Positions 4,372 to 21,745 of a stretch of DNA of 39,750 nucleotides are shown one piece after another. A model generated the notes under the pieces. The model had not been told where the DNA came from, did not search any database, and saw nothing but the letters and a program-made list of their open reading frames with translations. This DNA comes from a virus: positions 1 through 39,750 of the IMG/VR virus record IMGVR_UViG_3300025131_000122; one strand, 5' to 3'. The position numbers and the translations under genes were made by a program. Each line of letters begins with the position of its first letter. Position 1 is the stretch's first letter.

Positions 4372-4783
4372 CTTTTGCATTCTTAATCATTTCTTCAATC
4401 TCACTGTCACCAATCTTAAGAGTCTTAAGCGCATCTTTGATTCGCCTCTTGAGATCTTTATCATCCATCCTATCAATCTCACTCAGCCCGCGAACGTCCC
4501 CCTCTAGCTTCACTAGCCTGTCGAGGGAAGTAATGAGCCGGGACAAGTGCTTTGAACGGTTCTCGTCCAAGCATTCGGATTCTACACCTATAGACCCCGC
4601 TAGCTTGGTCATCTCCATATGAACTAATGATAGAAAGTCCGATATGAGTCCTTGCGAACTAGGGATAACCTTAGCGACCTGCATCTTATGACGCATTGAG
4701 TCACGAACTAGCTTATCGTCGGTGTACTCTTCCTTATTCTTTTCCGGCAGGGGGACTAATTGGTGCTTGTTGCGCTTCTGCAT
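4364..4783 (-). CDS. Candidate terminase small subunit
   Basis: A 139-residue, strongly helical, charged protein. The segment LSRLITSLDRLVKLEGDVRGLSE (about residues 80-103) resembles the central oligomerisation helices of small terminases, and the C-terminal third is acidic/basic helix. The position, four genes ahead of terL in the same operon, also fits. It overlaps the preceding gene by 50 bp. I cannot see a clear helix-turn-helix, so the assignment is by context and shape. The neighbouring small proteins at 4734-4979 or 3193-3423 are alternatives. Confidence 0.5.
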   Translation of the reverse strand: MQKRNKHQLVPLPEKNKEEYTDDKLVRDSMRHKMQVAKVIPSSQGLISDFLSLVHMEMTKLAGSIGVESECLDENRSKHLSRLITSLDRLVKLEGDVRGLSEIDRMDDKDLKRRIKDALKTLKIGDSEIEEMIKNAKDI

Positions 4784-4979
4784 CGGGTCCTGCCTCTAAT
4801 TGGGTGACAACCATCATGGCAACGTCCAAACCATCAATTTGGGAGTCCAATGCGCCCAATTGCTTGCTCAAACGGTCAATCTGATGTGTTAAGGCCCCTC
4901 GTTGGGTGCATAACTCCGTATACTTGTTATTAATGGCCTCTTTGCCTTCATTGCCCTCAGTGGGTGTATTATTCTCCAT
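4734..4979 (-). CDS. Small coiled-coil protein, first gene of the late operon
   Basis: An 81-residue protein from ATG 4979 behind AAAGGACTGAATT. Residues about 20-60 form a heptad-patterned helix (LTHQIDRLSKQLGALDSQIDGLD). The C-terminus is Ala/Pro/Gln-rich and disordered-looking. It is the first gene after the candidate late promoter at 5080-5065, with a leader of roughly 75 nt. The function is unknown. A DNA-recognition partner of the terminase or a late regulator are both conceivable from the position. Confidence 0.7.
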   Translation of the reverse strand: MENNTPTEGNEGKEAINNKYTELCTQRGALTHQIDRLSKQLGALDSQIDGLDVAMMVVTQLEAGPDAEAQQAPISPPAGKE

Positions 4980-5064
4980 AATTCAGTCCTTTCTTGTTTA
5001 ATGTCATGTTTTTGGCTCCAAAAAATAGAATGTGTTTTCCGATTGTGTCATTACCTGTGTGAGA

Positions 5065-5252: not shown

Positions 5253-5337
5253 TGGCACGATTTTTGATTTGGCATGGTTCTTGATTTGGCACGGTTTTTG
5301 ACTTGGCATGCTTTTTTATTTGGCACGGATCTTGCAT
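5253..5337 (+). repeat. Five 17-bp tandem repeats of a -24-like element
   Basis: TGGCAC/T begins at 5253, 5270, 5287, 5304 and 5321, exactly 17 bp apart. Units include TGGCACGATTTTTGATT, TGGCATGGTTCTTGATT and TGGCACGGTTTTTGACT. Each reads as a sigma-54 -24 element followed at the right distance by TTGA, TTTA or, only in the last copy, the canonical TTGCA. The array could be tandem or decoy RpoN sites. A 17-bp period is also typical of replication iterons, so an origin is the main alternative. Confidence 0.8.
5321..5336 (+). promoter_or_regulatory. Perfect sigma-54 (-24/-12) match, rightward
   Basis: TGGCACGGATCTTGCA, preceded by T, fits the consensus YTGGCACG-N4-TTGCW at every conserved base. 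Transcription would start near 5347 and run rightwards into a gene-free stretch, then antisense to the DUF7227 gene. No protein start fits, so a small or antisense RNA is the likely product if it is active. Confidence 0.55.
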
Positions 5338-7248: not shown

Positions 7249-7362
7249 GGGTATTTTTACCCCATGAGGGGAAAACCCCCACCCACCACGACATAAATGT
7301 CATAGTCCATGACACGAATGTCAGTGGGGCTTTTTACCCCATAGGTGGGGCTTTACCCACCC
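7249..7362. repeat. Two ACCCC/GGGG hairpin repeats (copies A and B)
   Basis: Copy A (7249-7284) and copy B (7325-7362) share TTTTTACCCCAT, a short spacer, GGGG and a following ACCC run. Each can form a 5-9 bp GC hairpin. A degenerate third copy with GCCCCAC...GGGTGGG lies at 7580-7618. They look like repeated protein sites or structured RNA elements rather than terminators, since no U-tract follows. Confidence 0.55.
7290..7322. promoter_or_regulatory. Cluster of overlapping palindromes (operator candidates)
   Basis: GACATAAATGTC (7290-7301) and TGTCAT-AGTCC-ATGACA (7298-7314) are perfect inverted repeats. GACACGAATGTC (7311-7322) is an imperfect third. They lie 100-130 bp upstream of the leftward -24 element, a normal enhancer position for a sigma-54 activator. 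The binding protein is unknown. Confidence 0.5.
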
Positions 7363-7394
7363 GGTCGTTTGTGCAGTGTGACAATTTGCATCTT

Positions 7395-7448
7395 GAGAAT
7401 GATTCTCATTATTGTTATCAGGTGATAATGAGAATGATTATCGTTATC
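7395..7448. promoter_or_regulatory. Cluster of Fur-box-like operators
   Basis: TGAGAATGATTCTCA (7394-7408) is a perfect 7-1-7 palindrome of the Fur type. GATAATGAGAATGATTATC (7424-7442) matches the 19-bp Fur consensus at 17 of 19. An overlapping site shifted by 6 bp (7430-7448) matches 16 of 19. Overlapping GATAAT-like hexamers offset by six are the usual form of extended Fur sites. The cluster lies 210-270 bp upstream of the early promoter and about 200-250 bp upstream of the leftward one. Confidence 0.62.
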
Positions 7449-7452
7449 AGCT

Positions 7453-7468
7453 CGCGTGCGCGTGCGCG
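7453..7468. other. Alternating CG/TG tract (Z-DNA-prone)
   Basis: CGCGTGCGCGTGCGCG is 16 bp of strict pyrimidine-purine alternation, extended by GGCGCG. It begins 5 bp after the Fur-like cluster, in an otherwise AT-rich region. Such tracts can adopt left-handed DNA under negative supercoiling. Confidence 0.5.
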
Positions 7469-7579
7469 GGCGCGTAAGAAACAATCCCTATTTGTTCCAA
7501 TGGAAATATCCGTGGAAACCAAATCCCGCCCAAAAGATCGACCTGATTTTATTTCAAAATTAAGAATCGAAACAAAGCA

Positions 7580-7618
7580 GGGTGGGTTTTGCCCCACGGG
7601 TGGGTTTTATTCCCCCAC
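7580..7618. repeat. GC-box repeat, copy C
   Basis: GGGTGGGTTTTGCCCCAC followed by GGGTGGGTTTTATTCCCCCAC. It contains two near-identical GGGTGGGTTTT half-units and complementary C runs, so it can form alternative hairpins. It is related to the 7249-7362 copies and lies 45-80 bp upstream of the early -24 element. Confidence 0.5.
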
Positions 7619-7660
7619 TTACATTATTTGTAAGTCATTGATTTTATTGTGGCAAAAAGT

Positions 7661-7676
7661 TGGCACAAGACTTGCA
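7661..7676 (+). promoter_or_regulatory. Sigma-54 (-24/-12) promoter of the early operon
   Basis: TGGCAC-AAGAC-TTGCA, preceded by T, carries the full -24 and -12 cores with correct spacing. Transcription would start near 7687, about 23 nt before the first early start codon (7710) and just ahead of its AGAGGAGG ribosome binding site. No -10/-35 pair of comparable quality is visible nearby. Confidence 0.72.
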
Positions 7677-7709
7677 TGTCCTTATAAACATAACAGAGGA
7701 GGTTTTAAA

Positions 7710-7934
7710 ATGAGTATGTCAACAAGTGAATGCAGAGTTAGGTGTTGTGAGAGCTGCCACGAATCAATGGAATACTGTGCCAAGCTAATTTTTATGACTG
7801 AAGACGTTTCAGATATTCTTGGTGTTCCTTGTCGAGAGGCAGAACGCTTTTTAGCGGTAAATAAAAAGCACATAGAGCAAGCAATGAGGGATGCCGGATG
7901 GAAAGCCATCAAAGAGCTTAAAGAGGAGGTTTAA
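7710..7934 (+). CDS. Small Cys-rich protein, first early gene
   Basis: A 74-residue protein starting at ATG 7710, chosen because AGAGGAGG lies 7 bases upstream and because earlier in-frame sequence is promoter DNA. The N-terminal 25 residues hold C-R-V-R-C-C-E-S-C-H-E-S and another Cys, a likely zinc-binding knuckle. The C-terminal part looks helical (VNKKHIEQAMRDAGWKAIKELKEEV). It shares the CESCHES motif with the next gene. Small zinc-ribbon proteins made first are often host-takeover factors, but the function here is unknown. Confidence 0.78.
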   Translation: MSMSTSECRVRCCESCHESMEYCAKLIFMTEDVSDILGVPCREAERFLAVNKKHIEQAMRDAGWKAIKELKEEV

Positions 7935-7936
7935 GA

Positions 7937-8110
7937 ATGAGTGTATGTATGGTTGAGTTAAGAGGAGTTCAGTGGTGTGAGAGTTGCCACGAATCAGCGA
8001 TGAGTACGGACTTTGAAGCGGGCATGGAGGACTGCGATAGATGCTTCGCGGAGAGCGACCCCAAGGAATATGCCGAGTGGGTAAAAGAATGCGAAGAGGA
8101 GGGTAAATGA
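7937..8110 (+). CDS. Small CxxC protein, second early gene
   Basis: A 57-residue acidic protein (MSVCMVELRGVQWCESCHES...) from ATG 7937 behind AGAGGAGG, 2 bp after the previous stop. Two CxxC pairs (C-E-S-C and, 20 residues later, C-D-R-C) fit a four-Cys zinc finger. The 21-bp stretch coding for CESCHES is 20/21 identical to the same stretch in the upstream gene, so the two share a duplicated or gene-converted module. Function unknown. Confidence 0.78.
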   Translation: MSVCMVELRGVQWCESCHESAMSTDFEAGMEDCDRCFAESDPKEYAEWVKECEEEGK

Positions 8111-8113
8111 GGC

Positions 8114-8350
8114 ATGGCAGCACCAATCATAGCCCGCTACAACGGTGGGAATTGGGTGATCCGCAGCCCTCTGTCATATCAGTGGGACGTAAGCGATAGG
8201 ATAACAATGATATACGTGGAGGTAGATAAGCAGGAGGCTCGTTGGTATGACATTAGTCTAGCTAAGATCATAGACGATGAGCGAGTACTTGTAGACTTCA
8301 ACGAATTTAAAAAACTTTTGGCCCGTAAATTCGGGCAGCTATTGGAGTAG
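8114..8350 (+). CDS. Hypothetical early protein
   Basis: A 78-residue protein starting at ATG 8114, with GAGGAGG 12 bases upstream at the end of the preceding gene. Alternating hydrophobic stretches (WVIRSPLSYQW, ITMIYVEVDKQEARWYDISLAKII) suggest a small beta-rich domain with a C-terminal helix. No metal motif or membrane segment. Family not recognised. Confidence 0.72.
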   Translation: MAAPIIARYNGGNWVIRSPLSYQWDVSDRITMIYVEVDKQEARWYDISLAKIIDDERVLVDFNEFKKLLARKFGQLLE

Positions 8351-8355
8351 GAATT

Positions 8356-8571
8356 ATGCCAAGAATGTTAAGTGACAGTGAACTAGACGTATTAGATGCT
8401 CAACAGCAACAAATTGAGGCACTAAAATTTCAACTAAGACTAGGACTTACCACAGTGGATAACCTTATGGTTTCCATAGAAGACCTAGTACCTGAAGACC
8501 AAGAGGTACCACAGGCATACAAGCATGCTGTCTTTTGGACAGGTGATGCAGATACTTTAATTAAGGGATAG
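8356..8571 (+). CDS. Hypothetical early protein with N-terminal coiled coil
   Basis: A 71-residue acidic protein from ATG 8356. Residues 5-40 form a Gln-rich amphipathic helix (ELDVLDAQQQQIEALKFQLRLGL); the rest is acidic. Its stop codon lies within the first hairpin of the structured RNA region that follows. Its ribosome binding site (TAGGAATT) is weaker than those of its neighbours. Function unknown. Confidence 0.68.
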   Translation: MPRMLSDSELDVLDAQQQQIEALKFQLRLGLTTVDNLMVSIEDLVPEDQEVPQAYKHAVFWTGDADTLIKG

Positions 8572-8802
8572 GGTAGGCATACTCTATCGCGTGACGGAAC
8601 AAGCGGGGTGGTAGCCGCTAACGTACTCTGAGTTGTAACGGAACGCCGATTGGTGCAGGTTACAACGAAAAGGTTGGGGGTTATAGGCGAAAGCTGTTGA
8701 AGCCCCGGACTGAGGTACCAAGACAATGTGTTTGCCGCCTTACTATCAACGGCGCAGGGTCTTGGTTGCAGGTAACAAGTAAGTCCTGCCGCTTAACCTT
8801 TT
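8567..8802 (+). ncRNA. Long structured RNA region (unassigned ncRNA or leader)
   Basis: About 235 nt with almost every segment in a stem. Hairpin 1: GATAGGGTA/TACTCTATC (8567-8588, loop GGCA). Hairpin 2: AGCGG/CCGCT (8602-8619). Hairpin 3: GTTGTAAC/GTTACAAC (8632-8666) enclosing CGCC/GGTG. Hairpin 4: GGGG/CCCC (8676-8706) enclosing a GAAA tetraloop. Hairpin 5: ACCAAGAC/GTCTTGGT (8717-8766) enclosing GCCGCC/GGCG. Hairpin 6: GGTTGCAGG/CCTGC...AACC (8764-8802). No reading frame crosses it convincingly. It precedes the replisome-organiser-like gene. I could not match it to tRNA, tmRNA, RNase P, hammerhead or a known riboswitch. Confidence 0.65.
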
Positions 8803-8818
8803 AGACGGGAGAAATAAA

Positions 8819-9367
8819 ATGGACAATGAAATACTAACCACCCTCACAGCGGCCATAGCCGAACTGACAACAAGCGTCAAAGAATTGACGGTAGTGATGG
8901 AACCTACTAAAAGAAAAGTAAGACAAAAGAAAAGTATAGATGTTAATAATAATATAGATAATAATAATATATATAATAATATATATAGCAAGGATCGTGC
9001 CAAAAAAGACCCCGATTTGTCCTTCGATATTCGCAGTGTTGTAGCTCATTATCGGACATATCACCCCAAAGCTCTCAGGACGCTCCTCAAGAAGAGCAAG
9101 ACCTATTTAGGGGTAAAGGGTCGGTTGAATGACGGATACACCGTGACGGAGCTTGTATCGGCTATAGATGGCATGCACAAGTCACCTTTCCACCTCGGAC
9201 AGAACGAACAGAAAACTCGGTACCTGTCTTTGGAGCTTTGCATGCGTAATGCAGAGCAGGTGGAACGGTTTATATCTATCGACCGCGACGAAGTGGTCCC
9301 CGATGTTGGGGTCAACACATTAAAAACGGTCAATGCAGCAAAGGAGTGGTTAAAAAATGGAGTATAA
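8819..9367 (+). CDS. Replisome-organiser-like replication protein
   Basis: A 182-residue protein from ATG 8819 behind GGGAG. Residues 1-35 form a helix, and 42-57 an Asn/Ile/Tyr linker encoded by an AT-only tract. The C-terminal domain (about 65-165: VVAHYRTYHPKAL, RLNDGYTVTELVSAIDGMHKSPFHLG, EQVERFI) resembles the C-terminal domain of phage DnaD/O-type replication initiators. Such proteins bind the origin and recruit the host helicase through a loader. A loader candidate lies in the same operon (12554-13309). The typical winged-helix N-terminal domain is not evident, so the protein is short for the family. Confidence 0.6.
   Translation: MDNEILTTLTAAIAELTTSVKELTVVMEPTKRKVRQKKSIDVNNNIDNNNIYNNIYSKDRAKKDPDLSFDIRSVVAHYRTYHPKALRTLLKKSKTYLGVKGRLNDGYTVTELVSAIDGMHKSPFHLGQNEQKTRYLSLELCMRNAEQVERFISIDRDEVVPDVGVNTLKTVNAAKEWLKNGV
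8943..8987. other. AT-only tract inside the replication gene (candidate origin)
   Basis: Forty-five base pairs with a single G (8957), made of AAT and AT repeats. It encodes the Asn/Ile/Tyr linker of the replication protein. Lambda and related phages place their unwinding element inside the initiator gene, so this is a reasonable origin candidate. I see no clear iterons beside it. Confidence 0.45.
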
Positions 9368-9536
9368 TTTTAAACATGAGAACAATCAACGTGCCGCATT
9401 GCGGTACCTTGCCAAGAAAACATATCAGCGTAAAAGGCGCGAATGGATAGAAGTACGGATAAAAATTTCAATCTTCTTTTTTTCACTTGCGCTAGCAGCT
9501 ATTTTATATTATTGGAACAACACATTCGGGGGATAG
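9357..9536 (+). CDS. Small single-span membrane protein
   Basis: A 59-residue protein from ATG 9357, overlapping the preceding stop by 11 bp and ending 1 bp before the next start. The N-terminal 33 residues are strongly basic (LAKKTYQRKRREW). They are followed by one hydrophobic span (IKISIFFFSLALAAILYYW) and a short tail, predicting an N-in inner-membrane protein. No family recognised. Confidence 0.7.
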   Translation: MEYNFKHENNQRAALRYLAKKTYQRKRREWIEVRIKISIFFFSLALAAILYYWNNTFGG

Positions 9537-9537
9537 G

Positions 9538-10452
9538 ATGATCACACAATCAAGCATAAAACGCTATCAGGACTGCGAGTACAAGTTTAAACTACGTTAC
9601 GTGGACTTATACCGAGAGGATAAGGAGAGCGAGCCGTTGGTTTTGGGGTCACTTGTGCATCTAGGCTTAGAGGCATTTTTGCTTGGTAAACCCCTTGAAG
9701 TAGCCCTTGAAGAGATAGAGCGGTCGGCAGACACATACCTGCTATGTGATAAAGACCCGTCGATCATTGATAAGTCGTGTATCTTTGTTGAGGGCTACTA
9801 TAAACGATATGCCGAGCTTCACGCCGAGCGGTATGAAACCGTATCGGTGGAACAAGAGTTCACTATGGAGCTTGGCCCAAACACCATCGGTGGTAAGTTC
9901 GACGGTGTTTTGCGCGACAAAAAAACAGGAGAGATAATTCTAATCGAACACAAGACCTGTGGCGATTGGACCGCGAAGGATGCTATGGGTGTCTATTGGC
10001 AGCAACGCCAAAATGCGTTCGATACGCAGCTTGTTATCTATCAAGAGGCACTGCGCCGAGACATGGGCTTGCCTTGGGAAAAGCCGCCGAGAATTATTTA
10101 CGATGTGATTTACAAGGACAAGACTCAAATGAAGGACTTGTCTAAAATGCACAAATTCTACACTGACGATTCCATGATGCACAGGTTCAGCTACACTCGA
10201 CAGGATATAGTTTACACGCCCGCCGATAGGCTTCGTGCGCTTAGTGAGTATAAGGCACTAGCTACTCGAATCCAAGATAGGATGGAGGATGGGGAATGGT
10301 TGAGAAATACGAACGCATGTAGAAAGGGATGGGGGATGTGCGAGTTCTTTAAGGTGTGTCAGGGAATGGATGACCTTGAGACTGCCGACAATTTAGTTAA
10401 ACTAGGGGCGGCTCACCCTGAGCTACCTCAATTAATGGAGGAAAAAAAATGA
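9538..10452 (+). CDS. PD-(D/E)XK nuclease, Cas4/AddB-like with Fe-S cysteines
   Basis: A 304-residue nuclease of the RecB/Cas4 superfamily (PDDEXK_1). It starts at ATG 9538 behind GGGGGATAGG. Catalytic pattern: His 41, GKFDG (Asp 122), IEHKT (Glu 137 and Lys 139) and Gln 164/Tyr 168 (motif Q-x3-Y). Cys 13 in QDCEYKF pairs with a C-terminal cluster C261...C268...C274, the arrangement that holds a 4Fe-4S cluster in Cas4 and AddB. It precedes a RecA-like ATPase and an SSB, so it probably supplies 5'-end resection for phage recombination. Confidence 0.88.
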   Translation: MITQSSIKRYQDCEYKFKLRYVDLYREDKESEPLVLGSLVHLGLEAFLLGKPLEVALEEIERSADTYLLCDKDPSIIDKSCIFVEGYYKRYAELHAERYETVSVEQEFTMELGPNTIGGKFDGVLRDKKTGEIILIEHKTCGDWTAKDAMGVYWQQRQNAFDTQLVIYQEALRRDMGLPWEKPPRIIYDVIYKDKTQMKDLSKMHKFYTDDSMMHRFSYTRQDIVYTPADRLRALSEYKALATRIQDRMEDGEWLRNTNACRKGWGMCEFFKVCQGMDDLETADNLVKLGAAHPELPQLMEEKK

Positions 10453-11414
10453 ACAGGTTTTCTTTGGCTAAGTCCAAAACAAAAAAGAAAAAACCACCAC
10501 CGAGGCTGATGGTGATCGGAGATCCGGGGATTGGCAAAACCACCTTCGCCGCCAATGCCGACAGTCCCGTTATCATTGCGACCGAGAGCGGTAGCATAGG
10601 TACGGACGTACATACATTGCCAAGCGATGGCACCTGTCAAACGTGGCAGGATGTTATTGATTCAGTGGATGCCTTATTGGAGTCCGACCACAACTATAAG
10701 ACTGTGGCTATCGATACATTGGACAATGCAGTGTCTCTTTTAGAAAAAGAAGTGTGCGACACTGACTTCGGTGGAGTGATGAATGCTACCCGAGGTCGTG
10801 AAGGCTTCAATAGCTATGGCAAGGGCAATGCAGTAGTGGCACAGCGCCTAAAGGAGTTCTTACAAATAAAGCTTGATGCCCTGCAACAGCAAGGTATGCA
10901 GGTCATCTTGCTGTCCCACACGGGTGCTGCCAAGGTGAGCAATAGCCTAATGCAGGACTTTACAGCTTGCGCGGCTTCCCTGCCCAAACAAAGCTTGGCT
11001 GTAATCAATGCATGGTGCGACCAAATAGGTCACGCATGTAGCGACATCAGGGTGATTCAGCGGGACGGTGAGAAAGCCAAAGCTCAAGCAGTAGGCAACG
11101 AGCGATGGTTGGTGTTCGAGCCTGAGCCGGGAAGACTTGTTAAGAGTCGCATTGGCTACGAGATGCCGTCGAGGGTTCCTCTTGGGTATTCGCAGTATGC
11201 TGCGGCTATGGGCCGCGACTTATCCACCGATGAGGTGAGCAAGTGCTTGGGGCTTCTTAGCTCAGTGGATGAGGAGACTCTTGGGGTTGCATTGGGCAGC
11301 TTGAAGAAAAGCTCAAAGGTCAAAAGCGTAGATGATATTAACAAGGATGTTTTAGCCGGACTTGGCTTAGACAAACTAAAGCAATTAAATAATTGGCTAA
11401 CAACAAAAGTATAG
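10449..11414 (+). CDS. RecA-like AAA_24 ATPase (Sak4-type recombination protein)
   Basis: A 321-residue ATPase. It starts by ATGA overlap with the nuclease stop. Walker A is GDPGIGKTT at residues 24-32 and Walker B VAIDT at 86-90, followed by a VILLSH motif in the middle. This RecA-core pattern matches the AAA_24 (PF13479) family that includes phage Sak4 single-strand annealing/recombination proteins. At 321 residues it is longer than compact Sak4, with an extra C-terminal helical region. An SSB follows 10 bp downstream, the usual partner of Sak4. Function in homologous recombination is inferred from family and context. Confidence 0.8.
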   Translation: MNRFSLAKSKTKKKKPPPRLMVIGDPGIGKTTFAANADSPVIIATESGSIGTDVHTLPSDGTCQTWQDVIDSVDALLESDHNYKTVAIDTLDNAVSLLEKEVCDTDFGGVMNATRGREGFNSYGKGNAVVAQRLKEFLQIKLDALQQQGMQVILLSHTGAAKVSNSLMQDFTACAASLPKQSLAVINAWCDQIGHACSDIRVIQRDGEKAKAQAVGNERWLVFEPEPGRLVKSRIGYEMPSRVPLGYSQYAAAMGRDLSTDEVSKCLGLLSSVDEETLGVALGSLKKSSKVKSVDDINKDVLAGLGLDKLKQLNNWLTTKV

Positions 11415-11424
11415 AGGAGCAGTA

Positions 11425-11865
11425 ATGATTAATTATCCTGATAACAAAACAACAGTGGAAGTAAGCGCACCCCAAGAAGGTGACTTTATTTTCCCAAAGG
11501 GAACCTATGATTTTAGCATCACAAGTGCAGCACATAAAACCTATCGGACAGGTACAGAGGGTGTCGAAATTGAGTTGGAAGGCTACTATGCCTCCGGCAA
11601 AACCTTTCGGTGCTTCGACCGAGTGTTCTTAACGGCGAATGCCATGTGGAAGTTCGACCAATTCTTGGCAGGGTTGGGGTTGAACAAGCGTCCCGAAAAT
11701 GACGATGAGCTTTTAGGGCTTATTGGCAAGAAGGGCAATGCGGTAATGGGGCCGAATGATGATGGGTATCCAAAGGTACTCCGATACAATGAGATCGAGA
11801 TTGCAGAGGATTGGTCTAAAGTTGGGCCGCCACCGATGCAAACCTCAGAAGACGTACCATTTTAG
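11425..11865 (+). CDS. ssb: Single-stranded DNA-binding protein (SSB-like)
   Basis: A 146-residue protein from ATG 11425 behind AGAGGAGC. The N-terminal 110 residues look beta-rich as in an OB fold (YDFSITSAAHKTYRTGTEGVEIELEGYYASGKTFRCFDRVF). The protein ends in an acidic tip, SEDVPF, like the DD(I/V)PF tail by which SSBs recruit partner proteins. It follows the Sak4-type ATPase. It lacks strong resemblance to bacterial SSB in the core, so it may be of the DUF669-like phage type. Confidence 0.72.
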   Translation: MINYPDNKTTVEVSAPQEGDFIFPKGTYDFSITSAAHKTYRTGTEGVEIELEGYYASGKTFRCFDRVFLTANAMWKFDQFLAGLGLNKRPENDDELLGLIGKKGNAVMGPNDDGYPKVLRYNEIEIAEDWSKVGPPPMQTSEDVPF

Positions 11866-11900
11866 TAGCAATTTGGAAGGCTAGACTGTAAATTTATTGT

Positions 11901-11967
11901 GGATGTGGCTTTGTGGGTATCTTCCTACTCCCCTAAAGCCCACTTAGTCGCATCCACTTTGGGGAAG
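11901..11967 (+). promoter_or_regulatory. Hairpin with loop complementary to the ribosome binding site
   Basis: GGATGTGGCTTTGTGGG (11901-11917) pairs with CCCACTTAGTCGCATCC (11939-11955), giving a 17-position stem with two U-U mismatches and two G-U pairs. The loop contains CTTCC (11921-11925) and CTCCCC (11928-11933). Both can pair with GGGGAAG (11961-11967), the ribosome binding site of the gene at 11970. An H-type pseudoknot masking translation is therefore possible. Confidence 0.55.
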
Positions 11968-11969
11968 TT

Positions 11970-12233
11970 ATGAGACATTTTAAAAGCAGATTTGAATGGT
12001 TGAATAAACTAATTTGTAAGTTGTTCGGTTGCGCCATGATCCATGTGAGTGCTATGGCATTTGCAGAGGGAGAAATGGAGCCTGTGGAAATACTAATGGT
12101 GTGTCCACGTTGTGGGCAAGCGCATTGCCATGATTGGCCCTTCAATGGACCATCCATAAAAATGGATATGAACGGGGACATGGACTTGGAGTTCATCCCT
12201 GATTTTGATGTTAACCGAAAAACACTAAACTAA
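11970..12233 (+). CDS. Hypothetical protein with a CPRCGQ zinc-knuckle motif
   Basis: An 87-residue protein from ATG 11970 behind GGGGAAG. It has a basic N-terminal helix with two Cys (KLICKLFGCAMIHVSAMAF). The second half contains CPRCGQAHCHDW, one clear CxxC plus Cys and His that could complete a metal site. The C-terminus is acidic. Its leader contains the SD-pairing hairpin described at 11901-11967. Family not recognised. Confidence 0.72.
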   Translation: MRHFKSRFEWLNKLICKLFGCAMIHVSAMAFAEGEMEPVEILMVCPRCGQAHCHDWPFNGPSIKMDMNGDMDLEFIPDFDVNRKTLN

Positions 12234-12249
12234 TTTAAGGGGGAGTAGG

Positions 12250-12576
12250 ATGAAGGACACAGCAGTTCATCTCAGCAACCAACCCACTAATGCTAGAGGG
12301 TATGCATCAGATGGATACTTCAACACGATTGGGTACGCTATGGCAGAATCTAGATTTGACCAAAAAACAGGAAACGTCAGAACTCAGCACGACATGACCC
12401 CCAAAGAAATAAAGAAGCTCGAAAAGAAGTACGGGGCAAAGATACGCATGGATGTAGAAGTTCCCACCCACCGACCCACTGACGAGGCATCTATATGCAA
12501 TGGGTGGTACTACAAGCAGCACCGACGAAGAAAGTTGGCACAGGAGGCTCTCAATGCAGAAAAAGGACAAGGTTAA
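12250..12576 (+). CDS. Hypothetical protein
   Basis: A 108-residue basic protein from ATG 12250 behind AAGGGGGAGTAGG. The middle contains DMTPKEIKKLEKKYGAKI, a charged helix. The C-terminal WYYKQHRRRKLAQEALNAEKG is strongly basic. It overlaps the start of the next gene by 23 bp and carries that gene's AGGAGG within its own coding sequence. No family recognised; nucleic-acid binding is plausible from the charge. Confidence 0.72.
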   Translation: MKDTAVHLSNQPTNARGYASDGYFNTIGYAMAESRFDQKTGNVRTQHDMTPKEIKKLEKKYGAKIRMDVEVPTHRPTDEASICNGWYYKQHRRRKLAQEALNAEKGQG

Positions 12577-13309
12577 GTTCCTCGAAGTGCTGACATCGTT
12601 GAGTGATTTATACGATGCGCCACTATCGCAGGGTAGCATCTCTCTTTATTGGGAGACACTAAAGGTGCTGTCGCTCGATGGCTTTATTGCCGCCTCGAAG
12701 CACCATGCCGAGACAAGCAAGTGGATGCCTAAGCCAAGTGATTTCTTGGATGCCTCAAGGAAGGGCAGCATGAACTTGGAGGAGCGCAGTGCAATGGCGT
12801 GGCTAGGTGTGGTAAGCGCGGTGCGTAGCGTTGGCTCCAACCGTGGGGTCAACTTTGATGACCCACTAATCCATGCTACAATACGTTCGCTTGGGGGATG
12901 GGCTAACCTTTGCCGGAGCAAAACACAATACTTTAATTCGACGGTACGGGCATCGTTCCTCAAGACGTATGAACATATGTCTCGATGTGCAGAGAACGGT
13001 ACAGTACTTGGAACCTTGGGTAGCCTTGAGCCTTTATATGGCGCAGAAAAGAATAGCGATATGATTGAGATATCGACAGGGCTACCACAAGGACCACAGC
13101 ACAAGATGCTTCGTGAACACGTAGCGGATAGGGAGTTAAATAATGGAAGGCTTACCGAGCTTATACAGGGAATTTCAAAGGCTACGAAAATCGATAGCAC
13201 TACACAACGAGAGCCTGAGCAAAATGTTCAAGGAAAAAAGACAGGTGGACAAACGCTCGAAAGAACTACAGGCGATGATAGAGCGCAGGGTAACAAAGAA
13301 AGCCGCTAG
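12554..13309 (+). CDS. DUF6475-like protein, probable helicase-loader or replication factor
   Basis: A 251-residue protein from ATG 12554, chosen for its AGGAGG 6 bases upstream. Residues 10-65 (LTSLSDLYDAPLSQGSISLYWETL...AASKHHAETSKWMPKPSDFLDA) followed by AW..V, FDDP and LGGWANLC resemble phage proteins of the DUF6475 type (name from memory) found beside replication genes. Their N-terminal region is reminiscent of loader proteins. The last 55 residues are low-complexity and overlap another convincing frame. With the replisome-organiser-like gene it could form a lambda O/P-like pair. Function inferred. Confidence 0.6.
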   Translation: MQKKDKVKFLEVLTSLSDLYDAPLSQGSISLYWETLKVLSLDGFIAASKHHAETSKWMPKPSDFLDASRKGSMNLEERSAMAWLGVVSAVRSVGSNRGVNFDDPLIHATIRSLGGWANLCRSKTQYFNSTVRASFLKTYEHMSRCAENGTVLGTLGSLEPLYGAEKNSDMIEISTGLPQGPQHKMLREHVADRELNNGRLTELIQGISKATKIDSTTQREPEQNVQGKKTGGQTLERTTGDDRAQGNKESR

Positions 13310-13367
13310 AGAGGAGGATCTTAATTATGTTGAACTCGATATCGAAAGATTGGAAACACATGGATGA
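13143..13367 (+). CDS. Coiled-coil protein overlapping the DUF6475-like gene
   Basis: A 74-residue highly charged protein from ATG 13143 behind GGGAG. Nearly all of it is a long amphipathic helix (YREFQRLRKSIALHNESLSKMFKEK...), with the look of a genuine protein. It overlaps the last 167 bp of the preceding gene in another frame, and the next gene's start by 41 bp. The preceding gene's tail looks less protein-like here, so this frame may have been the original. Function unknown. Confidence 0.6.
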   Translation: MEGLPSLYREFQRLRKSIALHNESLSKMFKEKRQVDKRSKELQAMIERRVTKKAAREEDLNYVELDIERLETHG

Positions 13368-13515
13368 GAAGGAGAAGCAACGGTGGGAGGATTTCTACAG
13401 GGACAACCCGATTAAGCCTGACCGTGGAGAAATGCCTTGGGAAAAATACAAGGACGGATACCTCCCTAAGAGGAGGAAGATAGAAAACATACCTTGGGGA
13501 GAAGATGACACCTAG
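13327..13515 (+). CDS. Small charged protein
   Basis: A 62-residue protein from ATG 13327 with AGGAGG 8 bases upstream. It is Lys/Glu/Trp-rich, with the repeat-like PWEKYKDGYLPKRRK and IPWGEDDT. It overlaps the previous gene by 41 bp and the next by 11 bp, as in a tightly coupled operon. No family recognised. Confidence 0.66.
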   Translation: MLNSISKDWKHMDEKEKQRWEDFYRDNPIKPDRGEMPWEKYKDGYLPKRRKIENIPWGEDDT

Positions 13516-13984
13516 AAAAAACTACGAATCTCAGACCGACCTCAAGAACGAAACCCGTGCGCTTGAAGATCTTGGTGTGGGTGATAGATACGACTTCTGT
13601 AAGCTCCCTGTGTCTTATCGCTTAGACTTTGCCATGATTAGAAAGCGTCCGGGTGGACAATGGTTCGGTGCGAACATACTTGCCTTCGTAGAGGTCAAGT
13701 GCCGGAAGGGGAATAGCACTGACCGCGATGAGTTCTCGATTTCAGCATTAAAAATAACACATGGGCTTTTACTTGCTCGTGCAACAGACAAACCATTCCT
13801 GCTTGTTATCAAGTGGGAGGATGAAACACTTATGTGCAATGTTGGTCAGGTTGATTGGCGCGTCCAAATGGGGGGACGGGTTAAGACCCGGCGCGATGGT
13901 GCCGATGTCGAGCCGATGATGACTTGCACTATAGAAGATAGTTTAATGACACCTAAATCATTTTTTAATAGGAGGATAAAATGA
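13505..13984 (+). CDS. PD-(D/E)XK family nuclease, small
   Basis: A 159-residue protein from ATG 13505 behind GGGGAG. The sequence RLDFAMI (Asp 41) followed by ILAFVEVKCR (Glu 63 and Lys 65) gives the D...ExK active site of the PD-(D/E)XK superfamily. A following helix (ISALKITHGLLLARA) and strand (FLLVIKW) match the conserved core. It could be a resolvase-like or VRR-type nuclease; substrate unknown. It is one of three such nucleases in the operon. Confidence 0.75.
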   Translation: MTPRKNYESQTDLKNETRALEDLGVGDRYDFCKLPVSYRLDFAMIRKRPGGQWFGANILAFVEVKCRKGNSTDRDEFSISALKITHGLLLARATDKPFLLVIKWEDETLMCNVGQVDWRVQMGGRVKTRRDGADVEPMMTCTIEDSLMTPKSFFNRRIK

Positions 13985-14169
13985 ATAAGTTTTTGGAGGA
14001 TGTAATTGATATACTCGTTGTTGTGGCTATTTGTGGGTTTGGTGTGCTGCTTCTGCTTATTGGAAGTGGCTGTGCTAGCATCGTACCTCTTGACGGTGTG
14101 CGCTATCAAAATATGCACACGGGATGTGTGTCAGATTTACGTGGAGAACCTGAGAGTTGGTGTGAATGA
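13981..14169 (+). CDS. Small membrane protein or lipoprotein
   Basis: A 62-residue protein whose ATG overlaps the previous stop (ATGA) behind AGGAGG. Residues 8-30 form a strong hydrophobic segment (VIDILVVVAICGFGVLLLLIGSGC), then CASIVPLDG. The segment ends in GSGC, a non-ideal lipobox. The polar C-terminal half contains Cys and would lie outside the inner membrane. It could be a membrane-anchored or lipid-anchored envelope protein of the infected cell. Confidence 0.7.
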   Translation: MNKFLEDVIDILVVVAICGFGVLLLLIGSGCASIVPLDGVRYQNMHTGCVSDLRGEPESWCE

Positions 14170-14507
14170 GTGGCCTGAAAAGTCGGCGCAAAGGACACAA
14201 TTACGAGCGAGAGCTTGCGGCACGATTCAGAGAACACTTTCCTCACCTAGATATCAGGCGCGGCTTGGGTCAGGTGAGGGGCGGCGATCAAGGCCCGGAT
14301 GTGGACATGCCGATGTTTTGGGTAGAGGCGAAGAGACACAAGAGGTGCAACGTAAAGGCTGCGCTAAAGCAAGCTATAACAGATAGCGCCAATGATGAGC
14401 AGAAGCGCATCCCCGTAGCAGTATGCAGGAACGACCGCGAAGAACATGCAAGCGTGAGTATGCGCCTAAGTGACTTTATCACCATACTAGAGAAGTTGTT
14501 GCCATGA
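14166..14507 (+). CDS. Holliday-junction-resolvase-like PD-(D/E)XK nuclease
   Basis: A 113-residue protein starting by ATGA overlap. N-terminal RRKGHNYERELA (Glu 14), then GGDQGPDV (Asp 45) and FWVEAKRHK (Glu 54 and Lys 56), reproduce the E...PD...ExK pattern of archaeal Hjc-like and phage resolvases. A helix follows (VKAALKQAITDS). The length fits a compact resolvase. It probably cleaves branched intermediates before packaging. Confidence 0.78.
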   Translation: MSGLKSRRKGHNYERELAARFREHFPHLDIRRGLGQVRGGDQGPDVDMPMFWVEAKRHKRCNVKAALKQAITDSANDEQKRIPVAVCRNDREEHASVSMRLSDFITILEKLLP

Positions 14508-14880: not shown

Positions 14881-15054
14881 ATGACTTTAGAAGAAATCAA
14901 AAGAGAACTGTTGGAGCGCATAAAGAATGCGAAATACAATGGGCAAGATGAAATCGTACTCAGTCTATCTCAGGCAGCGATGATATTAGAGGGGCTTATA
15001 ACCCAAAGATGGGATGACATAACCGTGCCTATTACCGATGACGATAGAAAATAA
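14881..15054 (+). CDS. Small acidic protein, last early gene
   Basis: A 57-residue protein beginning MTLEEIKRELLERIK, from ATG 14881 behind GTGAGGTAAAA. It is mainly helical, ending with an acidic tail (ITDDDRK). Its stop overlaps by 23 bp the end of the leftward metallopeptidase gene, so the two operons converge with no spacer. Function unknown. Confidence 0.68.
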   Translation: MTLEEIKRELLERIKNAKYNGQDEIVLSLSQAAMILEGLITQRWDDITVPITDDDRK

Positions 15055-18430: not shown

Positions 18431-21400
18431 TTATGTTTGAATGCCGATGATGGTTATGCTGAAGGGCAGGTCAAAGTACCACGCATTGGTCGCGCTTACC
18501 GAGCCTAGTGTAACCCATATTTTTTTCCCGTTGGCAGCGTCCCTCCATGCCGTAACATTTGTAATCGCATTTATTGTTGGATAAGCCAAATTTGATATAA
18601 TAGAATTGACAGTTGCCTGAATTGAAACTGTGTCGTCTACTGCCTCGTCCAACCAAATGGTATAATACCCTATACCTTGGTATGAGTTGCCACTTAAAGC
18701 CATAGCCACTTCGTCGATATTGTAGTGATCATCGGCAACATCAACTGTTGACCAAGGTACAGCGAGGGCATCGGGTGTGAAGAATCCCGTTGCAATTATA
18801 CTGTTATTACATACTAAGCTTTGGAATGTGCTAAGGCCCGAAGGTTCCTCGTCCTTCGCTGAAAAAACTAATTCTGCATCATCTAATCTGCTCCCATCCC
18901 CCACCTCAACATACTTTTTGGAACCCGTACCTATGTCAGACCACAGGGTGAGCATTCTATGCACATCTCCATCGGCAGCGTTGCTTCCAAAGAACATCGA
19001 AGCCGAACCGCCCGCGCCCGATGTGTTGTAGGCACACAAGACAAGTGGGTCTAGTGCATTCGCACAATCATGTGCCAATATTGTCGCATTATCCACGCTC
19101 CCTGCGGGCAGGTCCACGGGCAGTGTTCCTATTCCGCAGGTCAGAGTCGGACCTGAATATAGTGAGGTGCTAGGTCCACCTGTTTGGTTGGGATACATTC
19201 TTAATAGAGTACCACCATCACCTGTTCTAGCTTGCCCGATAGATATGGCGGGTGTTGTTGTAGTGGCAGATTCTCCAATGAGAAGGTCACCCTTCGCCTT
19301 AAGGGAACTAGACTCTGAACTACCGCATGTTATATTTTGATATTGGTCTATGAGTATGGCAGTCGCGCTGTTGTTATCTATATAGACACTGCCTGTACCC
19401 TCCTGCTTTATTTGCAGTTCCCCTGTCGAACCCGCATCCCTCTCTATCTTGGCGCTAAACGCTCCTGCCCCTAGAGCGGGTTCAGATATAAACATTATAG
19501 TAGATTTAGCACTTGATACGGTCCTCCCCATACCCAACGCAAAAAGCGCACCTGTACCCGTGGCATCATCGGGCCTTACCGTGACAATTTGATTGGTGTC
19601 AATCGAAAGAGCCTTTGTAGCGTTGGTGTGAAGTTCTATTGCCCCCGCTAATGCATAGGCCCCTGCGCCCGGTACGGTTTCTATTTTTAATGGACCCGTA
19701 CTTCCTTGATGAGAAATTATAAATTCTCCCGTACTGTATGAAGGTGTGTCCCCAACTAATCCCGGTTGCCTCCATACTCTAGCCTCAATAGGTTGTAAGC
19801 CTCCTCCTGCCACAAAGTTTAGAACTTTATTACCCGGCGATGAACTTGCTGACCCTATGTATATGCTGCCCGCTGATGTTGCACTATTGTTAACAACAAG
19901 GTTGCCCTGCATTGTTATATCCTGAGAGCTATTTATGTTCATAGCCAATGCAGAGTTGGTGTTCAACTCTATTATGCCCGTAGCACCCAAGGCATTAATG
20001 GCAACGTTACCCGGTGTGGTTGCAGGCGAGGTGAGAACGGGGCCGCTACCGTCAGTAGCATACACGCTGCCCCATAGATCACCTGTTACGTCACCTGTTA
20101 CATTACCCGTTACATTGCCCGTTACATCACCTGTAAGGTTGCCTGTCACATCTCCCGTCAGGTCACCTGTTACATTACCTGTTACGTCACCCGTTACATT
20201 TCCTGTAAGGTTTCCTGTTACGTCACCTGTTACGTCACCTGTTACATTTCCTGTAAGATCTCCTGTTACGTCACCCGTTACATTTCCTGTAAGGTTGCCC
20301 GTTATGTCACCCGTTACAGGACCAACGAATGAAGCCGCTGTTACGGTGTCGAAGAACTCAGTGTCCCCCCAAATATCTATGCCGCCATCGTGCTTGAGTT
20401 TGATGGCATCGTTGAATGAGGGAACCATGTTTCCTGATGCAGTTATTATGAGATCTCTGTCTAAAGGAACCCCCAATGCGGTTTCAGGGAATAGCCCAAT
20501 GACCGAGCATCTTGCAGTGAACGGTCCCGTGGACTGTGGGATTGTACCACCTGCTGTAGTGTCGGGCCAAACATATTGCCCTAATGCTCCCTTGACTTCT
20601 GCACTAAAAGCCAACACGGACCTGTTTCTTGCCTCGAAAATCCTTATGCCACGGTTAAGCGACTCAGGCGCGACCTCTAGAGTCCAAGGCGCGACTTGGG
20701 GTTCTAGTTCCTCCCCAACACGCATTGTCATTGCGTGACTTGAATCTAAAATACAAGCCCATTGGGTATTGTTCGCACCAAGAAAAAGCCTAGAGTCGTT
20801 CGTTGCTGCCATGATCTCGCTAAAAGCGCTGTTAAAAGGAACAAAGGAACGCGCAGATGTAATTCTGAGAACGGAGTCTACGACCCCGAGATTAGTAGTA
20901 TGTTCTAGGATGACGTTGCATCCGTCACTAGTAGTCGGGCCGGGAGGGGCGGCGTGCCTGAATTTTGCCATATCGTCACCACTCGTCATTCTTAGCATTT
21001 CAGTGCCTCCGAATGAGAGTGTTCTATCTACTGCAACGCGACTGATATCAGTGTTATAACTAGCAGTGCTAGTCTCGTTTGTTACATCATAGGTTAGGGT
21101 GGAGGCAACATCGGATGTGAAGATTATTTTTCGCTCTGAGTTGAGTCCTCCATCTGCCCTATTTGTCAGGGACAGCATGTGCCTGCCTTCAGGCGGGGTT
21201 AACATGGCAGATCCGTGGAGTATGTCTACTGAACCCGTGGTGGAATCGAAGGTCATACCTCGAAAACTAGCTGCCGCACCACCCTGTATCTTGCTTATGT
21301 CCTTAAGCTCATGCACACCCACGATGTCCGTACCTGAACGAACGAGTACATCGTTGTCATCACCTATGGCCCCTATAGGCAGCGAGGCGGGGCCTGACGA

Positions 21401-21745
21401 TTCGGTCATGGCAACAACTGACGGGTTAGGATAGGTGCCGCTAAGATCTCCACCCGCCGAGCCACCCGGAGGGGTCCCCGGTGAGCCAACAATATCCCCA
21501 CCACTCCTTATGAGGGTTTCACCATCCGCGATAGCGCCAATGACTAGGTTCGTTCCTGCGCCCGTTTCCTTCATGCCCGACACGTTGGGGTCAGGGTAGG
21601 TGCCGCTTAAGTCACCACCTGCCGCGCCGATAGGAGCACCACCCTCGTTGATGCCGAAGAGGTCCACGGTTCTTATGCGAAACTTCTTTGTCCCGGTAGT
21701 AAGCTTTAGGGTCTTATCACCTGATGTCAGCTTGAATGTCGGCAT
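18431..21745 (-). CDS. Long tail fibre protein
   Basis: A 1104-residue fibre. ATG 21745 overlaps the upstream stop (TAATG). N-terminal residues 1-30 (FKLTSGDKTLKLTTGTKKFRIR) likely attach to the tail. Two copies of a recognised fibre repeat, AGGDLSGTYPDPNV and AGGDLSGTYPNPSV, follow within residues 40-125. Residues about 476-556 are 20 tetrapeptide units of the PVTG/NVTG/DLTG type, and the C-terminal half is Ser/Gly/Thr-rich beta sequence. No chaperone or hydrolase domain is evident. It follows the ejection genes and precedes the fibre-tip modules. Confidence 0.85.
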   Translation of the reverse strand: MPTFKLTSGDKTLKLTTGTKKFRIRTVDLFGINEGGAPIGAAGGDLSGTYPDPNVSGMKETGAGTNLVIGAIADGETLIRSGGDIVGSPGTPPGGSAGGDLSGTYPNPSVVAMTESSGPASLPIGAIGDDNDVLVRSGTDIVGVHELKDISKIQGGAAASFRGMTFDSTTGSVDILHGSAMLTPPEGRHMLSLTNRADGGLNSERKIIFTSDVASTLTYDVTNETSTASYNTDISRVAVDRTLSFGGTEMLRMTSGDDMAKFRHAAPPGPTTSDGCNVILEHTTNLGVVDSVLRITSARSFVPFNSAFSEIMAATNDSRLFLGANNTQWACILDSSHAMTMRVGEELEPQVAPWTLEVAPESLNRGIRIFEARNRSVLAFSAEVKGALGQYVWPDTTAGGTIPQSTGPFTARCSVIGLFPETALGVPLDRDLIITASGNMVPSFNDAIKLKHDGGIDIWGDTEFFDTVTAASFVGPVTGDITGNLTGNVTGDVTGDLTGNVTGDVTGDVTGNLTGNVTGDVTGNVTGDLTGDVTGNLTGDVTGNVTGNVTGDVTGDLWGSVYATDGSGPVLTSPATTPGNVAINALGATGIIELNTNSALAMNINSSQDITMQGNLVVNNSATSAGSIYIGSASSSPGNKVLNFVAGGGLQPIEARVWRQPGLVGDTPSYSTGEFIISHQGSTGPLKIETVPGAGAYALAGAIELHTNATKALSIDTNQIVTVRPDDATGTGALFALGMGRTVSSAKSTIMFISEPALGAGAFSAKIERDAGSTGELQIKQEGTGSVYIDNNSATAILIDQYQNITCGSSESSSLKAKGDLLIGESATTTTPAISIGQARTGDGGTLLRMYPNQTGGPSTSLYSGPTLTCGIGTLPVDLPAGSVDNATILAHDCANALDPLVLCAYNTSGAGGSASMFFGSNAADGDVHRMLTLWSDIGTGSKKYVEVGDGSRLDDAELVFSAKDEEPSGLSTFQSLVCNNSIIATGFFTPDALAVPWSTVDVADDHYNIDEVAMALSGNSYQGIGYYTIWLDEAVDDTVSIQATVNSIISNLAYPTINAITNVTAWRDAANGKKIWVTLGSVSATNAWYFDLPFSITIIGIQT
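20081..20320 (-). repeat. Twenty 12-bp repeats coding (N/D)(V/L)TG in the tail fibre
   Basis: Exactly 240 bp = 20 units of 12 bp (on the plus strand variants of ACCTGTTACGTC). They encode PVTG, DITG and then 18 units of NVTG, DVTG, NLTG or DLTG. The run is bounded by DLWG at 20069-20080. Neighbouring units differ by one or two bases, so slippage could change unit number in 4-residue steps without breaking the frame. Confidence 0.9.

Follow-up and report, generated by a model that had tools for sequence, protein, structure and literature searches.

Background

The manA and wcaG RNAs were described together as riboswitch candidates borne by cyanophages (Weinberg et al. 2010, accessible text of PMC2864571). 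Phages and prophages also carry GOLLD and ROOL, structured non-coding RNAs of unknown function found near tRNA islands, many GOLLD members being longer than 800 nt (accessible text of PMC12286853). Where its biology is discussed, the accessible parts of the literature present manA as a 5' UTR or cis-regulatory element (among PMC2864571, PMC9964418, PMC9602691, PMC7779021, PMC7657543, PMC3023696, PMC12286853 and PMC10665884), and in one of these papers its regulatory role is said still to need verification (PMC9964418, accessible text). Our search of the accessible literature returned no function for manA, nor any description of it as a gene in its own right. The family has been known since 2010; the sequence comparisons below suggest that it is a stand-alone RNA gene.

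A structured RNA in an early phage operon

The window (the whole 39,750-nucleotide stretch of phage DNA analysed) carries a structured RNA at positions 8567-8802 of the plus strand. A sequence-only reading of the same DNA had placed a structured RNA of about 235 nt in the early operon; its coordinates are accurate to a few bases, and covariation in four contigs confirms the RNA. The features of the locus are as follows.

8356-8571, plus strand: upstream ORF of 71 aa, whose stop codon lies within P1, the first helix of the RNA
8567-8802, plus strand: manA-family structured RNA (RF01745), divergent long form (Rfam E-value search, covariation)
8567-8575/8580-8588, plus strand: P1, 5' hairpin of 9 bp with loop 8576-8579 (fold; aligned to Rfam helix 1)
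8589-8591, plus strand: P2, 5' strand, pairing with 8790-8792 and closing the multibranch core
8591-8599, plus strand: core motif GUGACNGAA, invariant in 27 aligned members
8594-8624, plus strand: P3 hairpin (8594-8596/8622-8624 and 8603-8606/8615-8618) with a conserved internal loop (covariation)
8632-8666, plus strand: P4a hairpin, outer helix 8632-8639/8659-8666, inner helix 8644-8647/8652-8655 (covariation)
8672-8711, plus strand: P4b hairpin with GAAA tetraloop 8689-8692, part of the clade's enlarged middle domain
8717-8766, plus strand: P5, long helix (8717-8724/8759-8766) with inner helices (covariation)
8768-8789, plus strand: P6 hairpin (8768-8772/8785-8789) with conserved loop UANNNAGUAA(N)U (covariation, 27 members)
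8790-8792, plus strand: P2, 3' strand (covariation)
8807-8811, plus strand: ribosome-binding site GGGAG of the next gene
8819-9367, plus strand: downstream gene, replication-initiation (O-like) protein (phrog_16167, 3.1e-10; also phrog_18020)

The RNA ends 16 nt before the downstream ORF, in an operon that holds replication-initiation, nuclease and AAA proteins. Since neither a promoter of 10/12 matches nor a terminator abuts it, we take the window RNA to be co-transcribed with its neighbours. Three related contigs (L002, L003 and L030) carry the same RNA type. A Pfam search with the 71-aa ORF gave no match; a similar ORF stands upstream of the RNA in L003, and in L002 and L030 an ORF ends at the same point. 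Downstream, the O-like gene adjoins the RNA in the window and in L002, whereas L003 and L030 have there a short ORF whose product begins MYNN; the O-like gene of L003 lies about 2.6 kb further on, so that the RNA there has the window's upstream neighbour and a different downstream one. As the earlier reading held, no coding frame explains the interval: each forward frame across the RNA contains 4-5 stops, and the longest open runs are of 60 codons on the plus strand and 73 on the minus strand. A tRNA or tmRNA is excluded, ARAGORN finding no such gene in the window. By blastn against 50,697 phage records the RNA region had no match (no close isolate), and neither did the RNA types of L179, L012 and L100.

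Some further features of the window were recorded. AT-rich direct repeats (TAATAATAATATA units) at 8935-8988, inside the O-like gene and just 3' of the RNA, fit what is expected of a lambda-O-type replication origin. Tandem repeats of 17/34 bp (4.5 copies of 17 bp) lie at 5253-5328, ahead of the early operon, and others of 12/36/48 bp at 20078-20318, within a large minus-strand ORF (18431-21745). The early genes are on the plus strand from about 7300 to 14200, most long ORFs past 15 kb are on the minus strand, and the GC skew turns near 15000.

Fold and covariation

The sequence-only reading had judged the density of structure far above chance, and had proposed covariation analysis and an Rfam search as checks. 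By energy the judgement is too strong: the minimum free energy, -85.1 kcal/mol, compares with -74.5 +/- 4.4 in 200 shuffles (z -2.41), four of the 200 shuffles fold as well, and z falls to -1.45 once 38 nt of downstream sequence are added. The folding energy being only moderately unusual, it is by itself no proof of a structured RNA. Covariation was scored on a 58-pair structure in four sequences, the window and the three related contigs. Here 223 of 230 pair cells are paired (97.0%), compared with 84.0% in shuffled alignments and 31-50% when the partner strand is slid, a figure that leans toward the window because the structure was derived from its sequence. The double changes are unaffected by this: both partners have changed in 24 of the 58 pairs (34 cells), where shuffles give 12.0 such pairs (13.4 cells) and sliding the partner strand gives 0-4. 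This is decisive, and 8567-8802 is a real folded RNA.

The three stems of 8-9 bp noticed by eye correspond to P1, P4a (8632-8639/8659-8666) and P5. Among the four relatives, 7 of the 8 pairs of the outer P4a helix changed on both sides, and the GAAA tetraloop at 8689-8692, also noticed before, is invariant. Three of the five P2 pairs of the family form in the window, one of which (8590-8791) is C-G there and G-C in L002, L003 and L030. A weak inner helix, 8734-8737/8750-8753, is paired in 68.8% of cells.

A divergent member of the manA family

A default Rfam scan of the window, at the gathering threshold, returned no match. When positions 8400-9000 were searched by E-value against 4227 families, the sole match was the manA RNA (RF01745), with E 8.1e-8, over the full length of the model (1-192 of 192). 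Its score of 36.5 bits is below the gathering score of 55.2, which explains the empty default search. The reading had called the RNA unassigned and matching no class; this does not hold, and the RNA stands under the name of a known family, an outcome the reading itself had foreseen. The relatives score in the same range (36.5 bits in L001, of identical sequence, 32.4 in L002 and 30.0 in L003, the latter two likewise end to end). About 78 bases are inserted in the middle of the alignment with respect to the model, where the window clade has two large hairpins, and the low score fits this insertion. The window has a single occurrence of the core signature, with both GUGACNGAA and the P6 loop GGUANNNAGUAA(N)UCC. 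Its RNA is a divergent manA-family member whose middle domain is enlarged.

Searches at the Rfam threshold overlook divergent members of this kind. In a search of 48 records with RF01745 under other settings (E 0.01), which left out L161-L202 and most of L007-L125, 38 records matched and 31 were over the cut-off; G010 was found, and G009 and G011 were missed. G009 carries the L124 RNA, which belongs to the window's cluster. For wider comparison we used our own model, R1; since it was built with the window included, the 78 bits that it gives the window RNA are not independent, whereas the Rfam score is.

In an alignment of 27 members, four helices (17 pairs) are paired in 95.6% of 458 cells, as opposed to 73.6% in shuffles, and the double-changed cells number 105, where shuffling gives 28.1 and sliding the partner 11-18. 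At this level covariation covers P2, P3 and P6: four of the five P2 pairs show double changes, and the five P6 pairs are paired in 100% of cells. P2 may be the pairing that a figure legend in the accessible text of PMC2864571 gives, with a question mark, as a pseudoknot. Invariant in all 27, and present in the window, are chiefly GUGACNGAA, an A and a G 3' of P3, and the TG..GGUA...AGUAA.UCC...C of P6.

Copy number and distribution

With R1 we assembled a set of 78 full-length members, the window among them, which fall into 18 clusters at 85% identity; members within a cluster are not independent, and the use of a motif pattern to collect loci biases the counts of contexts. Short, partial and weak matches (for example L172, L174, L176, L074 and L127) were left out of the 78, as were L217 and L218, which are the same contigs as L002 and L003. 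The search did not take in L001, L006 and L124, of the window's cluster; L219 is outside the 78; and 41 of the 77 loci L126-L202 were covered, the remainder being mostly near copies of cyanophage types. Each viral record had one match (40 of 40, weak or partial in G003, G015, G035 and G060), and so did each cyanophage isolate genome (10 of 10, 173-252 kb); two isolates are common to both sets, and many of the viral records are fragments.

The relatives are in phages, many of them marine cyanophages; the carriers include phages of Prochlorococcus and Synechococcus and uncultured phages. Among 84,980 bacterial and archaeal species, a pattern with spacing shorter than that of the window type gave a single match, on a 188-kb contig (L215, NZ_RMVE01000006.1) filed under Nonlabens xiamenensis. 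By eye, one of its ORFs resembles a transaldolase and several resemble oxygenases, and the contig is probably that of a T4-like cyanophage, contaminating the record.

Promoters, terminators and neighbours

A sigma-70-type promoter of at least 10/12 matches, with the end of its -10 box 5-11 nt before the RNA, was found in 29 of the 78 members (4 of 18 clusters), where 0.6 are expected from shuffles that keep base composition only; it is perfect (12/12) in P-SSM2, S-SSM5 and P-SSM7, and 49 members are without a strong abutting promoter. An intrinsic terminator follows within 90 nt in 24 of 78 (6 of 18 clusters), compared with 1 of 316 positions drawn at random from these loci; the remaining 54 are without one by the criteria used. 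Both signals occur together in 14 of 78, namely S-SSM5 and all 13 members of cluster L012, where promoter and terminator frame the RNA alone; in locus L012 itself a further terminator precedes the promoter.

The neighbours vary. A tRNA gene lies within 10 nt in 8 of 78 members (3 of 18 clusters), and one 85% cluster contains the orders Thr-RNA-Ala, Ala-RNA-Asn and RNA-Gly. RNAs at least 85% identical are followed by differing features: tRNA-Ala, tRNA-Asn, tRNA-Gly or an ORF in cluster L126, and an ORF (two cases) or a terminator (two cases) in cluster L010. An ATG-started ORF of at least 45 aa begins within 60 nt in 43 of 78, some of these ORFs lying past a terminator. In the 11 of 37 isolate records inspected (most of the others are second accessions of phages already covered), the first sizeable gene after the RNA is gp32 in P-HM2, transaldolase in P-RSM6, carbamoyltransferase in P-SSM7 and purL in P-SSM2. 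P-HM1, MbCM1, P-RSM4, S-SSM5 and MED4-213 have a small hypothetical gene following the major head protein, P-SSM3 has small hypotheticals following a phosphate transporter subunit, and P-TIM68 an ORF on the opposite strand. On unannotated contigs, too, cyanophage-type RNAs recur ahead of ORFs with like N-termini.

RefSeq annotates "hypothetical proteins" over the manA RNA in P-HM2 (L205, 1571-1745), P-HM1 (L207, 1456-1632) and S-SSM5 (L213, 1505-1711); these short ORFs are probably spurious. On L127, a contig with many tRNA genes, a helix running end to end (AAAGAACACT/AGTGTTCTTT; 4722-5041, minus strand, by eye) encloses two manA-like core motifs. In L069 (1-184, minus strand), what we take by eye to be the 5' end of a tmRNA lies within about 15 nt of the RNA; the contig ends there, and an RF00023 search of this record, which stops at the putative tmRNA start, gave no match. 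In the related record that holds L051, some 500 nt separate the RNA from a tmRNA downstream. A general association of the two (7 of 40 records over the cut-off) was set aside.

A stand-alone RNA gene or a leader

Homology, fold, copy number, placement and the promoter and terminator signatures are established. The manA family is probably a single-copy, stand-alone and likely early structured phage ncRNA that acts in trans, with the window RNA as a divergent member. A single copy, transcription units of its own and free choice of neighbours fit an autonomous RNA, and, judged from the compared loci, the cis-regulatory label suits the family poorly. Against a stand-alone gene, an ORF follows closely on the RNA in the window and in many cyanophages, as it would on a leader; 49 of the 78 members are without a strong abutting promoter and 54 without a terminator; a promoter at its 5' end would serve a leader equally well; and the cyanophage members recur before the same few genes (gp32, transaldolase).

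The strongest alternative, which we consider possible but unlikely, is a cis-acting leader, riboswitch or translational operator that controls the downstream gene (replication initiation in the window). It has on its side the Rfam type (Cis-reg), the 2010 description as a potential 5' UTR and riboswitch candidate (accessible text of PMC2864571), the ribosome-binding site and ORF 16 nt past the window RNA, the 43 of 78 members with a nearby ORF, even if some lie beyond a terminator, and the recurrence ahead of gp32 and transaldolase. Yet near-identical RNAs precede different features, terminators or tRNAs follow many members, there is a single copy per genome, and the RNA is kept while the downstream gene differs between the window and L002 on one side and L003 and L030 on the other. 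Nor does pairing speak for a switch. The window RNA lacks any 5-nt or longer complement of the sequence around GGGAG. A translational switch with the 3' strand of P2 (CuCCC) as anti-Shine-Dalgarno was rejected for want of complement enrichment, the complement between RNA and ribosome-binding site in the 43 ORF-type members averaging 4.81 against 4.97 +/- 0.12 in swapped controls; a terminator/antiterminator switch was likewise rejected (4.46 against 4.73 +/- 0.16 swapped, 24 members). By continuous complementarity, which is what these comparisons detect and which tertiary switching would escape, neither the window nor its relatives show a riboswitch expression platform of either type. The window copy, whose position is itself leader-like, may still have a leader function.

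Much less probable is an element of mRNA processing, stability or insulation, a compact intergenic fold that shields mRNA ends and separates polycistronic units. The exact intergenic position in many contexts, with any neighbour tolerated, and the abutment on tRNAs and terminators would be expected of it; but phages have dozens of such junctions and only one copy of the RNA, 14 of 78 members have a promoter and a terminator around the RNA, and the strict conservation of the unpaired core exceeds what a roadblock needs. Chance structure, or a coding region taken for RNA, can be practically dismissed, since the moderate folding energy (equalled by 4 of 200 shuffles) is outweighed by covariation in 4 and in 27 sequences, the Rfam E-value of 8.1e-8 and stops in all forward frames.

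On balance we lean towards manA being an autonomous phage ncRNA gene, early, transcribed from host-type promoters and acting in trans, with a range wider than the cyanophage types represented among isolates and a long form that sits in the early/replication operon of the window. In copies with a gene of their own, a sigma-70-type promoter would start the transcript at or near the first base of P1, P2 would close the multibranched core into which the RNA folds, and a terminator just 3' of the RNA would stop transcription. Copies in tRNA arrays would be released by tRNA processing, and the window copy would be carried on the early operon transcript and then released, or be active in place. The folded RNA would offer a fixed surface for contact with a protein, with the ribosome or with some other host factor. 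Host-type promoters are an established mark of phage early genes, and the early timing is proposed because of these promoters and the replication-initiation, nuclease and AAA genes of the window operon. The conserved bases are mostly unpaired or in loops (GUGACNGAA, UAA.GU, UANNNAGUAA) and the helix sequences vary, from which we infer a fixed-surface role and not an antisense one. The discrete RNA, its early timing, its action in trans and the existence of a binding target are inferred; that the RNA works by binding or as a decoy is a tentative suggestion that we regard as rather doubtful. If manA is a trans-acting RNA gene, the search for its role shifts from ligands and downstream genes to host targets, and P-SSM2, P-HM2 and S-SSM5 are cultured carriers.

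Comparison with known systems

The wcaG RNA (RF01761) differs from the window RNA in that it has no match in the window at the gathering threshold or in 8400-9000 at E up to 10. GOLLD and ROOL resemble manA as structured phage ncRNAs often near tRNA genes, a likeness of placement only, and by analogy manA may work as they do; neither of their covariance models matches, manA being the sole match among the 4227 families. With manA RF01745 the window RNA shares P1, the closing P2, P3 with GUGACNGAA and UAA.GU, P5, and the P6 hairpin with GGUANNNAGUAANUCC. It differs in its enlarged middle domain, with two large hairpins and the GAAA tetraloop, in a P2 of only 3 bp, and in its place in the early/replication operon of a 39,750-base phage record.
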